NCBI RefSeq assembly: GCF_011762125.1
Contig: NZ_JAASQN010000001.1
Coordinates: 1,178,001 to 1,242,000, forward strand
Source of the DNA: Sphingopyxis panaciterrae
Lineage (GTDB): Bacteria; Pseudomonadota; Alphaproteobacteria; Sphingomonadales; Sphingomonadaceae
Length of the DNA stretch: 64,000 bases
Reading direction: 5' to 3'
The notes under the pieces were generated by a model. It was not told where the DNA came from. It saw nothing but the letters and a program-made list of their open reading frames with translations, and ran no database searches. The translations under genes and the position numbers were made by a program. This document shows, one piece after another, positions 13,517 to 30,652 of this stretch. Within the stretch, counting starts at the first letter, position 1; each line of letters opens with the position of its first letter.

Positions 13517-13855
13517 ATGACGTCCGCCAAACTTCCCGAACCCAGAAATCCCGAAGCCAGAAATCCCGAAGAGTGCGAAACGATGACCGAGGTCCGCGCC
13601 GGGGTCGACCAGGTCGACCGCGAACTGGTCGCGCTGCTCGTCCGCCGCTTCGGCTATATGGATGCCGCGGCCCGGATCAAGCCCGACCGCGCGGCGGTGC
13701 GCGACGAGGTGCGCAAGGCCGAGGTGCTGCGCAATGTCGCGCAAGAAGCCGAAGCGTCGGGGCTCGACCCCGATCGGCTGCGCGCGGTGTGGAACGAGCT
13801 GGTCGAACAGTCGATCGCCTATGAATTCGACCGCTGGGACCGCACGCGCGCCTAA
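13517..13855 (+). CDS. Chorismate mutase family protein, PchB-like
   Basis: A 112-residue all-helical AroQ-class protein. The segment NPEECETMTEVRAGVDQVDR aligns with the N-terminus of isochorismate pyruvate lyase PchB (family PEDC...IREAIDRID pattern). It is followed by LVRRFGYMDAAARIK, matching the PchB active-site helix, and ends YEFDRWDRTRA. It could therefore be a chorismate mutase or a PchB-like lyase; no siderophore genes are nearby, which favours chorismate mutase. AAAGG at 13505-13509 supports this start. A second, distinct chorismate mutase gene lies at 31606-31893. A short tandem duplication (13546-13574) gives RNPEARNPE near the N-terminus. Confidence 0.78.
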   Translation: MTSAKLPEPRNPEARNPEECETMTEVRAGVDQVDRELVALLVRRFGYMDAAARIKPDRAAVRDEVRKAEVLRNVAQEAEASGLDPDRLRAVWNELVEQSIAYEFDRWDRTRA

Positions 13856-15033
13856 TCCTTATCGCTATCGCTTCGTTCCGGTCGGCGCCCTTTGCCCAGT
13901 GCTGTAATGATGCCGTGCATCATCCTGATATCATTGTAAGACCAGCCGGTCTTGGTCAGCGTCGTGCGGAGCGTGCGCAGCGTCGCTTCGGTGCGGTCGG
14001 GCACGAAGAAATAGCCCGCGGCGTCGAGGTCGCGGACAAAATGCTGGATCAGCCGTTCCATCTCGCCATGATCCGCCGGCGGATCGAGCGGGGCTTCGGG
14101 CGGGCTCGCGAGCGCGATACCCTTCGACCATTCATAGGCGAGCAGGATCACCGCCTGCGCGAGGTTCAGCGATCCGAATTCGGGGTTGATCGGCACCGTG
14201 ACGATGCTGTGGGCAAGCGCGACATCGTCGGTTTCGAGCCCCGAGCGTTCGGGGCCGAAGATATAGGCCGAGCGCCCGGCGCTGGCGTGAACCGCCTTTG
14301 CGGCGGCTTCGGGCGTGAGCACGGGTTTGGTGACGCCGCGCTTGCGCACCGTGGTCGCGTAGATATGCGCGCAATCGGCGACCGCTTCGGCAAGGCTGTC
14401 GAAGACCCGGGCTTCGGCGAGGACGCGATCGGCGCCCGACGCGGCCGGCCCGGCATCGGGGTTCGGCCAGCCGTCGCGCGGCGCGACGAGGCGCAGTTCG
14501 GTCAGCCCGAAATTGAGCATTGCGCGCGCCGCCTTGCCGATATTCTCGCCAAGTTGCGGACGGACAAGAACGATGACGGGAGGCGGGGCGGTTTCAATCT
14601 CCGTATCCCTCTCTTCCCATATCCCCGAGCGAGAGCGAGGGGCTTTGCCGGGGCTTAGCCCCTCCTCAGGACGAACGGATGGTGAAACATCCCGTTCGTC
14701 CTGAGGAGGGGCAGAGACTGAGCTTGTCGAAGGCTCTGTCCCGTCTCGAAGGATCTCGGCCCGGGATGCGAGCCGGCGGATCGCAGGCCAATCTTCCCGG
14801 ATCAATGCTTCCTTCTTGACCCGGGACCAGCCCTTGATTTGCCGTTCGGTTTCCAGTGCTTCAACCCGGGTGGGAAACTCGCTGCTCCACACCAGCTCGA
14901 CGGGACGCCTCGTCGCCGTATAGCCTGGAATTTCGCCGATCTGATGCTGGCCGACCCGATAGTCCAGTTTATCCGTATGCCCGACGTAATAGCTGCCGTC
15001 GCGACAGCGCAGCATGTAGGTCCAGAACGTCAT
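13852..15033 (-). CDS. trmJ: GIY-YIG domain fused to TrmJ-type tRNA 2'-O-methyltransferase
   Basis: One uninterrupted 393-codon frame. Residues 1 to about 92 are a YhbQ/UPF0213-type GIY-YIG nuclease domain: YMLRCRDGSYYVGHT, then YRVGQH and the catalytic-Glu helix ALETERQIKGWSR. Residues about 95-140 are a low-complexity linker. The rest is a SPOUT methyltransferase of the TrmJ family, which 2'-O-methylates tRNA position 32: NIGKAARAMLNFG, IFGPERSGLETDD and the knot SLNLAQAVILLAYEW. Between the nuclease domain and the SPOUT domain I find no ATG, GTG or TTG in frame, so trmJ has no obvious separate start. The linker is encoded by a palindromic repeat (14659-14711 and flank). It is the last gene of the rpiB-glyA-nrdR-direction series. 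Whether one fused protein is made is inference. Confidence 0.85.
   Translation of the reverse strand: MTFWTYMLRCRDGSYYVGHTDKLDYRVGQHQIGEIPGYTATRRPVELVWSSEFPTRVEALETERQIKGWSRVKKEALIREDWPAIRRLASRAEILRDGTEPSTSSVSAPPQDERDVSPSVRPEEGLSPGKAPRSRSGIWEERDTEIETAPPPVIVLVRPQLGENIGKAARAMLNFGLTELRLVAPRDGWPNPDAGPAASGADRVLAEARVFDSLAEAVADCAHIYATTVRKRGVTKPVLTPEAAAKAVHASAGRSAYIFGPERSGLETDDVALAHSIVTVPINPEFGSLNLAQAVILLAYEWSKGIALASPPEAPLDPPADHGEMERLIQHFVRDLDAAGYFFVPDRTEATLRTLRTTLTKTGWSYNDIRMMHGIITALGKGRRPERSDSDKD
14659..14711. repeat. Perfect 20-bp inverted repeat inside the fused GIY-YIG/TrmJ gene
   Basis: The left arm CCCCTCCTCAGGACGAACGG (14659-14678) is exactly complementary to the right arm at 14692-14711, with a 13-base loop. 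The neighbouring sequence to about 14760 (AGCTTGTCGAAGG, TCTCGAAGG) belongs to the same unit and reappears in the copy at 15075-15188. It encodes the proline/serine-rich linker between the two protein domains. Confidence 0.9.
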
Positions 15034-15074: not shown

Positions 15075-15188
15075 TCGTTCGTCTTGAGGAGCCATTGAGC
15101 TTGTCGAAATGGCGTCTCGAAGGGCTGTGACGTTGCTATCCTTCGAGACGAGGCTTCGACAGGCTCAGCCTCTCCTCAGGACGAACGG
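15075..15188. repeat. Second copy of the GTTCGTCCTGAGGAG / CTTGTCGAAGG repeat family
   Basis: The left half (TTCGTCTTGAGGAG, AGCTTGTCGAAAT, GTCTCGAAGG) pairs imperfectly with the right half (CCTTCGAGACGAGG, TTCGACAGGCTCAGCC, CTCCTCAGGACGAACGG). It lies between the start of the GIY-YIG/trmJ frame and the nrdR stop, so the GIY-YIG segment is bracketed by two copies. Confidence 0.85.
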
Positions 15189-15208: not shown

Positions 15209-15673
15209 TCAACTCTTCTTCGCCGCTTCGGCGACGCTCGAGGCGAATTCCTCGAAATCCTTTGCTTCGGTGAAGTCGCGATAGACGCTGGCGAAGCGGA
15301 TATAGGCGACATTGTCGAAGCCTTTCAGTGCTTCCATCACCATCGCGCCGATCTGTGCGGCCTGCACCTCGCTTTCGCCCGATGTTTCGAGCTGGCGCTG
15401 GATGCCCGACACGAGGCGCTCGATGCGGGCGCCGTCGATCGGGCGCTTGCGGCACGCGATCTGGACGCTGCGCATCAGTTTTTCGCGATCGAAGGGCTCG
15501 CGGCTGCCACCGGCCTTGAGCACCGCGACTTCACGCAGCTGGATACGCTCGAAAGTCGTGAAGCGCGCGCCGCAATCCTCGCACTGGCGGCGGCGGCGAA
15601 TCGCGGCGCCGTCCTCGGTCGGACGGCTGTCCTTCACCTGGCTGTCTTCATGGCCGCAATAGGGACAGCGCAT
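15209..15673 (-). CDS. nrdR: Transcriptional repressor NrdR
   Basis: A 154-residue ATP/dATP-sensing repressor of ribonucleotide reductase genes. The N-terminal zinc ribbon has Cys3, Cys6, Cys31 and Cys34 (MRCPYCG and QCEDCGARF). It is followed by the ATP-cone domain from about residue 48 ([16 protein letters not shown], and [13 protein letters not shown] near the end). Length is typical. It lies 3 bp after a small membrane protein gene and downstream of glyA, so is probably cotranscribed with rpiB-glyA. This glyA-nrdR linkage is common in alphaproteobacteria. Confidence 0.95.
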
Positions 15674-24056: not shown

Positions 24057-24388
24057 AATCGATCGAAGACATGATGAAGGCGGCGCAGGAAGCCGCCGCC
24101 ACCGTTCAGGCCCAGATGCAGGAGGCGCAGGCGAAACTCGACTCGGTCGAGGTCGAAGGCGTCTCGGGCGGCGGACTGGTGCGGATTCGCGCGAGCGCCA
24201 AGGGCCGGATCAAGGCGATCAGCATCGACGACAGCCTGATCGTGCCTGCCGACAAGCAGATGCTCGAGGATCTCCTTGCCGCCGCATTCAACGATGCGCG
24301 CGAAAAGGCCGACCAGGTGAGCAACGAGGAAATGGGCAAGATGACGAGCGGCCTGCCGCTGCCGCCCGGGTTCAAGCTGCCGTTTTGA
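24053..24388 (+). CDS. YbaB/EbfC family nucleoid-associated protein
   Basis: A 111-residue small DNA-binding protein: helical N-terminus MKSIEDMMKAAQEAAATVQAQMQ, then a beta core GVSGGGLVRIRASAKGRIKAISID and a C-terminal helix LEDLLAAAFNDA. It forms tweezer-like dimers on DNA. dnaX-ybaB is a widely conserved pair; recR, often third, is not here. Confidence 0.94.
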   Translation: MKSIEDMMKAAQEAAATVQAQMQEAQAKLDSVEVEGVSGGGLVRIRASAKGRIKAISIDDSLIVPADKQMLEDLLAAAFNDAREKADQVSNEEMGKMTSGLPLPPGFKLPF

Positions 24389-30336: not shown

Positions 30337-30652
30337 GCGCATCGGGGTGGGCACGGCGCCAACGCAGCCCGATCATCAGGATGAACGGCCAGAATATCGT
30401 GTTGAGCGCGTCGAAGGCGCTGTCCGGCATCCGCCATGCGCCGTGCGCGATGCGGTCGGCGACCTCCTTTGCGATCGCCGCCGCGAGGACGAACAGGAAC
30501 GGCGTCCAGGTCGCCAGCGAGCGCCGCGTCACGATGCGTGCCAGGAACAGGACGACCATGCCGCCGTGGACATGCAGCAGGCTGTCCGAGGCGCCGGTGC
30601 TCGTGCTGAGATTTCCGCTCAGCGGGCGATAGAATTCGATCAGGCTTTCCAT
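30317..30652 (-). CDS. Membrane protein, VanZ-like
   Basis: 111 residues with three hydrophobic helices (about 27-42, 47-62, 80-97). The pattern SDSLLHVHGGMVVLFLARIVTRR...AAAIAKEVADRI resembles VanZ-type small membrane proteins (conserved H...K-E). No role can be assigned. It converges on and overlaps the histidine kinase gene by 20 bp. The 264-bp gap upstream carries a heptad tandem repeat and a large palindrome rather than an obvious promoter. Confidence 0.65.
   Translation of the reverse strand: MESLIEFYRPLSGNLSTSTGASDSLLHVHGGMVVLFLARIVTRRSLATWTPFLFVLAAAIAKEVADRIAHGAWRMPDSAFDALNTIFWPFILMIGLRWRRAHPDAPSPPAA

Follow-up and report, generated by a model that had tools for sequence, protein, structure and literature searches.

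The window analysed here is a stretch of 64,000 nucleotides (nt) from Sphingopyxis panaciterrae (contig NZ_JAASQN010000001.1, positions 1,178,001 to 1,242,000), and our subject is a gene fusion on its minus strand at 13852-15033, together with the palindromic repeats around it. The region is a single uninterrupted open reading frame (ORF) of 393 amino acids (aa), in which a GIY-YIG nuclease domain, a linker derived from repetitive extragenic palindromic (REP) sequences and the tRNA methyltransferase TrmJ follow each other, and Pfam finds both domains, in agreement with the preliminary description of this DNA. The nuclease domain, of the Slx1-like or UPF0213 kind and with intact catalytic motifs, comprises residues 1-90 (14764-15033, from Pfam, alignment, structure match and AlphaFold), the linker residues 91-152 (14578-14763, from the Pfam bounds and AlphaFold) and TrmJ residues 153-393 (13852-14577, from Pfam, NCBIfam and genome search), all on the minus strand. 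At about 62 residues the linker is longer than the 45 or so first estimated. Upstream on the same strand is nrdR (15209-15673, from the ORF list and locus comparison), which is directly next to trmJ in most Sphingopyxis genomes that lack the cassette discussed below.

The C-terminal part has a SpoU/SPOUT domain, as found in tRNA 2'-O-methyltransferases, followed by the TrmJ C-terminal extension, and aligns over its length; by its sequence it is a member of the COG0565 tRNA Cm32/Um32 methyltransferase family. The SpoU methylase match (PF00588) is at residues 153-300 (E 2.9e-23) and the TrmJ/YjtD match (TIGR00050, NCBIfam) at residues 154-378, with 160.4 bits just under the cut-off of 167.15. 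This part shares 85-90% of its residues with TrmJ from the unfused loci L013-L031. In the nuclease the GIY-YIG match (PF01541) covers residues 3-73 (E 1.5e-15), and Tyr6, Tyr16, Gly18, Arg26 and Glu63 supply the GIY and YIG motifs, the central Arg and the C-terminal Glu. Its closest solved structures are the UPF0213 proteins of PDB entries 1ZG2 and 1YWL (E 1.1e-20). In an AlphaFold model of the fusion the predicted local distance difference test (pLDDT) score is 83-97 in blocks of the GIY-YIG domain and below 50 for residues 91-147 of the linker; the TrmJ part is poorly modelled, with a shallow alignment.

The only in-frame ATG, GTG or TTG codons of the nuclease and linker are at residues 1, 7, 48 and 77, and none occurs from residue 78 on until the SPOUT domain has begun, as had been noted from the DNA. 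A whole-protein search of the genome found no second TrmJ, and a single remote GIY-YIG gene besides the fusion; a profile search gave four GIY-YIG matches, of which the fusion alone is in the range of the nuclease subgroup defined below. With neither a start codon in the linker nor a second TrmJ found in the genome, TrmJ is seemingly made here only as a fusion protein, and the earlier proposal to that effect is supported.

The fusion was looked for in 80 Sphingopyxis genomes, a named collection, a draw of 199 genomes from the family and a draw from the phylum. Wherever a subgroup GIY-YIG gene adjoins trmJ the two share a frame that has no stop ahead of TrmJ (38 of 38, being the window and 37 other loci), and the linkers, of 75-303 nt, are every one a multiple of three. 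The fusion is present in at least 26 of the 194 trmJ-bearing genomes of the family draw, and in 20 of 96 genera. Comparison of the trmJ 5' end in relatives, suggested at the outset, thus gives no stop in the 37 other subgroup fusions, the only one being in a degraded copy, L017. As other genomes have the same fusion, again in frame, sequencing error, frameshift and assembly error are ruled out as its source. While fused, the GIY-YIG domain is under purifying selection, with ratios of non-synonymous to synonymous variation (pN/pS) of 0.13 in a clade of 6 sequences and 0.08 in one of 5; Tyr6 is kept in all 38 fusions and Glu63 in 36. That the fusion is real and maintained we regard as virtually certain. 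To call it unusual was half right, as the domain pair had been noted in 2006 and 2007 and is frequent in the family.

The L017 copy, found in one species, has a stop, is out of frame and is followed by a trmJ with its own ATG; it scores below 90 bits and is therefore outside the 38. It is likely to be an intermediate in loss of the cassette. In two fused copies, L056 and L214, the catalytic Glu is replaced by Gly or Asp, and L214 apparently also lacks Arg26. From their sequences these nucleases are probably dead and retained as N-terminal domains.

With regard to the repeats at the locus, the linker DNA contains a perfect inverted repeat as first described, although its length had been given as 20 bp: the arms, at 14658-14678 and 14692-14712, are of 21 nt, are 100% complementary and enclose a loop of 13 nt. 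They belong to a downstream REP block (14652-14754) made up of a REP unit of the type that we call gamma (14692-14754) and an inverted partial copy (14652-14678). A second block, not in the preliminary description, lies upstream of the fusion start at 15076-15188 and consists of two inverted gamma-type REPs with a 16-nt spacer, built like solo REP pairs elsewhere in the genome. Two repeat cores, allowing at most one mismatch, have eight sites in the window, seven of them in the two blocks and one at 30376; the exact matches number four, all in the two blocks, and other core matches in the scan have two mismatches each. The sequence CTCAGGACGAACG has 12 copies in the genome, 3 of them at the fusion locus, and its backward control has none. 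Reading the nine other sites gave five inverted pairs of the same kind (L089, L094, L096, L097 and L099), one alpha-like pair (L095) and three singles, and in other genomes too solo inverted REP pairs are dispersed, with varied spacers. A domain search of the S. panaciterrae genome found no Y1_Tnp (PF01797), the domain of the REP-associated tyrosine transposases (RAYT). Folding of the repeats as DNA is weak for alpha (z -1.7), beta (-0.7) and the gamma REP of the window (-1.7), and strong, with z about -5.5, for a type with ATTCCCGC and for a Rhizobiales-like type. An Rfam identity was considered for the repeats and rejected, the matches being below threshold, mostly to miRNA models on the hairpin, and taken as chance.

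The nuclease subgroup was defined with a profile, A1, made from 20 GIY-YIG domains and a cut-off of 90 bits that we set ourselves. Subgroup members mostly score above 90 bits and generic UPF0213-like members about 50-80, and as A1 was built from the subgroup part of this gap is there by construction. In a table of residue conservation there are 119 rows, sequences of other than 89 residues being excluded. For bracketing we scored inverted similarity of the 150 nt upstream to the 260 nt downstream of each gene, and set the threshold at the 99.9% point of a null made from 3950 positions displaced within those loci; 18 loci, including that of the window, were excluded as duplicates before scoring. 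The score is above this point in 107 of 133 subgroup loci, or 106 of 132 after removal of one further duplicate (L104, the same as L061), in contrast to 1 of 375 ordinary ORFs of at least 200 aa in the same loci. By context, the bracketed loci are 84 of the 95 away from trmJ and 22 of the 37 at trmJ. The outer edges of the alpha repeats, in 51 copies away from trmJ, have a median of -51 nt before the start codon (quartiles -58 and -49.5) and of +49 nt after residue 89 (quartiles 41.5 and 63.5).

Generic GIY-YIG genes of sphingomonads are bracketed in 11 of 13 cases (L017 excluded), by C- and G-rich palindromes, many of them like ATTCCCGC...GCGGGAAT. Five generic UPF0213-like genes (L178, L180, L182, L186 and L187) are bracketed by repeats like CGTCATTCCCGCGAAAGCGGGAATCCA, which are presumably of a widespread kind, hinting that the bracketing rule reaches past the subgroup. 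In other families of the class, too, there are GIY-YIG genes (L140, L141, L143, L148, L150 and L155) bracketed by palindromes of the type CCTCATCCTGAGG...CCTCGAAGG, and in the S. panaciterrae genome itself a generic GIY-YIG gene (L002, G000 contig C7, about 24092-24331) is bracketed by a different palindrome, GTGCCCCTGCGAAGGCAGGGGCCCATC. Among plasmid records there were 28 matches, the best of 59.6% identity.

The repeats of the subgroup fall by motif into three types set by us, alpha (59 loci), beta (38) and gamma (21), with 15 untyped loci excluded. For 104 of these 118 loci the most similar nuclease of another genus has the same REP type, the mean after shuffling being 45, and if a different genomic context is also required the number is 76 of 118 (shuffled mean 45, maximum 64); for a few named loci "another genus" is unsure, as genus codes and genus names were unmatched. 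We hold it highly probable that bracketing by REPs of matched type is a genuine property of these nuclease genes.

Type matching extends to REPs elsewhere in the genome. In the family draw 62 of 199 genomes bear a subgroup nuclease by a cut-off of E <1e-24, also set by us, and have a median of 4 alpha REPs, versus 0 in the 137 without (p 5e-7); at least 5 alpha plus beta REPs are present in 42 of the 62 versus 29 of the 137 (p 4e-10). Y1_Tnp is present in 31 of the 199, and the same level is reached in 16 of these versus 55 of the 168 others (p 0.065), so that the subgroup nuclease is the better predictor of REP load. REPs away from the nuclease fit its type in a comparison of 28 alpha-only with 9 beta-only genomes (p=9e-5), which was confined to nucleases away from trmJ and had repeats at the nuclease itself subtracted. 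In the case of gamma we have the 80 Sphingopyxis genomes, six of which have a gamma-type fusion and hold 5, 0, 14, 8, 23 and 6 inverted gamma pairs, the 5 being those of the S. panaciterrae genome, one of them at the window locus. Seven of the other 74 have 1-3 such pairs, and a single one (G036, with 17) has 5 or more. The association of gamma pairs with the window-type fusion has p 2.6e-7 by rank test, and the same if the window's own pair is left out. In G036 (contig C108, 12683-12724) one gamma pair lies just past a beta-type GIY-YIG-TrmJ fusion. As the S. panaciterrae genome has no other subgroup nuclease and no Y1_Tnp, the TrmJ fusion is the candidate enzyme there, if a nuclease of this kind handles gamma repeats.

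The preliminary description had a repeat insertion joining two neighbouring genes. Comparison with relatives points instead to the nuclease gene and its flanking repeats having come together, as in most unfused relatives there is no GIY-YIG gene between nrdR and trmJ, and the nrdR stop is 17-35 nt from the conserved Val of trmJ (15 of the 18 rows in L013-L031 without an intact fusion), often with an NTGA overlap. In the three other rows it is 227 nt (L017), 61 nt (L023) and a single frame (L021), and in L045, another Sphingopyxis bin without the fusion, it is 396 nt. The distance in fused rows is 350-633 nt. The L021 case, also recorded as L039, is a metagenome-assembled genome in which nrdR and trmJ share a frame with no stop, and it may be an assembly error. 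A second gene has a junction of 34 nt in 21 of 22 empty loci fetched, and of 49 nt in the other, and there five distinct occupied loci hold 421-442 nt. The occupied sequence of L077 has a repeat, the nuclease, a repeat and then a new start abutting the nuclease stop; in G065, one of the five, the nuclease frame looks broken.

Exchange of the nuclease is suggested by two fused Sphingopyxis clades in which TrmJ is 87% identical between clades and 86-88% within, whereas the GIY-YIG domain is 58% identical between and 84-90% within, and one clade has gamma repeats, the other beta. Judged from these sequences the nuclease module has either been replaced at one site or entered there twice. Over 37 fused proteins (L211 excluded, as the motif was not found) GIY-YIG and TrmJ distances are hardly correlated (rho 0.11), and the nuclease tree requires 8-10 changes of the trmJ label.

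TrmJ is one of several partners. The dnaG start overlaps the nuclease stop by 4 nt (ATGA and the like) in 20 of the 27 rows, which include a duplicate pair. Before an unnamed gene of about 190 aa (12 loci, grouped by us) there are four cases of stop-start abutment and four of a long read-through frame; a DOMON-like label for the product was dropped, as neither Pfam nor NCBIfam has a match past the GIY-YIG domain in the fused example tested. Domain searches also found subgroup nucleases fused to PseudoU_synth_2/S4 (rluD-like), Prok-JAB, MeaB and alanine racemase, with two examples for JAB and one for each of the others, and one example each of DnaG and Era downstream of other subgroup nucleases. 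With partners so varied there is no specificity for tRNA enzymes, and the recurring feature is the position at the translation start of a host gene. Among the 95 subgroup loci away from trmJ there are 49 with a context met only once, and many of the 49 are without such coupling.

We propose that the unit is a cassette, with inverted REP-like palindromes on both sides of a GIY-YIG nuclease gene, that would have entered the nrdR-trmJ junction and displaced the start codon of trmJ, the downstream REP being then read through to give the protein linker between nuclease and TrmJ. The nuclease would recognise or process its own REPs and spread them, in a manner like that of RAYT transposases with classical REPs but by an unrelated enzyme, and the solo inverted pairs would be gene-less derivatives of the cassette. 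The cassette may persist by capturing the downstream gene, which would be translated only as a fusion (trmJ, the rluD-like gene, JAB, meaB and alr) or by stop-start coupling (dnaG and the unnamed gene), and loss of the nuclease frame would therefore cost the host that gene. Taken as a whole, a REP-bracketed cassette that captured the trmJ start, with a type-matched nuclease family spreading the REPs, is the account that we favour and consider rather probable. What we observe is the fusion and the conservation of its frame, bracketing by REPs and matching of their types, a swap of cassettes, empty sites and purifying selection on the nuclease; REP cleavage, the mechanism of mobility and the advantage in retention are what we infer. 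The chances that the nuclease acts on and spreads its REPs, to judge from co-occurrence and the analogy with RAYT, seem to us about even, and persistence by capture of the start is a little less secure than that.

Several observations weigh against this account. There was no detectable match of upstream to downstream repeat in 15 of the 37 fused copies, two fusions lack the catalytic Glu, and generic members outside the sphingomonads are bracketed in just 2 of 11 cases. At the clearest empty site 34 nt have been replaced with no clean split, one occupied locus (L076) holds 1322 nt, and five loci were matched on one flank only; neither transposition nor cleavage was observed, and no systematic search was made for target-site duplications. 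The approximately unbiased (AU) test, done on 114 of 134 rows (20 distant or stop-bearing rows excluded), does not reject a single origin of trmJ-linked nucleases (p 0.54); we thus make no claim of many independent insertions from the tree, and the contrast between the two clades is the chief argument for exchange. With regard to REP load, three genomes (G226, G169 and G206) hold more of the opposite repeat type than of that of their nuclease, and 13 of the 199 have at least 10 alpha REPs and no subgroup nuclease. G076 has a window-type fusion and no gamma pairs, and the 17 gamma pairs of G036 are in a genome with a beta-type fusion. The genome comparisons also take no account of shared ancestry.

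The other observations of this sort concern REP-rich genomes and bear on the possibility that REPs are moved by a RAYT or some other enzyme, with the GIY-YIG genes as passengers or preferred neighbours. At least 10 alpha plus beta REPs are found in 15 of the 199 genomes that have neither subgroup nuclease nor Y1_Tnp, and Y1_Tnp carriers are somewhat richer in REPs (rank test p 0.007; at least 10 REPs in 13 of 31 versus 40 of 168 others, p 0.046). However the S. panaciterrae genome has its repeats and no Y1_Tnp, REP load over the family follows the nuclease more closely than it follows Y1_Tnp, and placement on both sides of the gene with matching of types would be unexpected for a passenger, and we think this explanation improbable. 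We give the same low rank to the view that the fusion is functional as such, GIY-YIG and TrmJ acting on tRNA or nicked RNA under selection for a shared RNA task. Conservation of frame in every fusion and purifying selection on both domains are as this would predict, and a role on RNA was proposed from one fusion in the part of the 2006 survey available to us (Dunin-Horkawicz 2006, PMC1564403). But the same nuclease group is joined to RluD-like, JAB, MeaB and alanine racemase proteins and by stop-start coupling to DnaG, 95 of its 132 loci are away from trmJ, the nuclease type has been swapped while TrmJ stayed, and the catalytic Glu can be missing.

Two further alternatives seem to us very improbable. 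The REPs could serve the nuclease as a site of regulation or self-targeting, such as an operator or an mRNA hairpin, with dispersed copies that are regulated and not mobile; the fairly constant bracket distance of the alpha copies and the matching of REP types would suit this, whereas the scattered solo pairs with their varied spacers, and the patchy occupancy of orthologous sites, look like the results of insertion. TrmJ could also be made separately from a non-standard start in the linker, for example ATA or ATT, and a purine-rich stretch does lie ahead of the TrmJ part. Among the 37 fusions that could be scored (L211 is out, its QLG motif not being found) 21 have one of the codons ATG, GTG and TTG in frame somewhere from residue 90 up to the QLG motif. 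Yet 16, like the window, have none, 28 have no in-frame ATG there, and a frame kept in 38 of 38 would be needless for a separate TrmJ.

The cassette that we favour has likenesses to several known systems. In REP/RAYT systems (REPtrons and REPINs) a small enzyme gene lies amid palindromic repeats, dispersed solo repeats are often inverted pairs, enzyme and repeat types are matched, and the REPs carry a 5' GTAG-type tetranucleotide. Here too the enzyme gene is bracketed by REPs with matching dispersed copies, but the enzyme is a GIY-YIG nuclease and not a Y1 tyrosine transposase, and as the defining Y1_Tnp was looked for in the S. panaciterrae genome and is absent, the cassette would work like a REPtron and yet is no member of the RAYT group. 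GIY-YIG homing endonucleases, free-standing or intron-borne, act by cutting the empty allele where they insert, persist selfishly beside or inside host genes and share with our nuclease the fold and a selfish-type position by host genes; they differ from it in that ours is a minimal Slx1-like domain with no DNA-binding extension, with its own flanking palindromes and with dispersed repeats. The nuclease belongs to the same sequence family as the UPF0213 proteins 1ZG2 and 1YWL, a family that we take to be COG2827/YhbQ/YazA, though with A1 the REP-associated subgroup outscores its generic members. Rickettsia palindromic elements are also translated in frame within proteins, but in the present case the repeat forms one end of a nuclease cassette and serves as a linker between domains.

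One such fusion was reported in 2006 and 2007, and what is new relative to the literature is the repeats surrounding the nuclease. ELI_05635 of Erythrobacter litoralis has the same domain order, an N-terminal Slx1-like GIY-YIG domain and then a COG0565 methyltransferase of the TrmJ family, and in the passages that we have from the two papers (Dunin-Horkawicz 2006, PMC1564403; Tkaczuk 2007, PMC1829167) it is presented as a single instance of doubtful relevance; recurrence in frame in many genera, a REP-derived linker and bracketing by REPs do not appear in those passages. The same portion of the 2006 survey suspected mobility of such domains and asked if further GIY-YIG proteins are molecular parasites (PMC1564403), and that of the 2007 paper describes TrmJ-family proteins with a fused DUF559 nuclease at the C terminus in relatives of Bradyrhizobium (PMC1829167). 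We found no paper joining GIY-YIG to REP sequences; preprints and most subscription journals were not covered, and a prior description is possible.

It may be that Slx1-like GIY-YIG proteins make up, independently of RAYT, a second class of enzymes that mobilise REPs, each with its own palindrome family (alpha, beta, gamma and, for generic members, probably ATTCCCGC...GCGGGAAT) and welded to host gene starts, with the TrmJ fusion as the working enzyme in S. panaciterrae, a proposal that we put forward tentatively, with the odds slightly against it. To our knowledge no enzyme is known for the REP families of RAYT-free genomes. The function of standalone bacterial Slx1-like GIY-YIG proteins is a question raised in 2006, in the part of the survey available to us (PMC1564403). 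The association of GIY-YIG with REPs makes both questions testable, as the protein has some 90 residues and the REP substrates are short, about 30 nt for alpha and beta and about 60 nt for gamma. For the joining of a nuclease to a tRNA methylase it offers a proposed reason, capture of the start site by a mobile cassette and not a common RNA pathway, and its recurrence across related bacteria is a pointer to selfish DNA of a kind little noticed so far, in which a GIY-YIG nuclease is employed.

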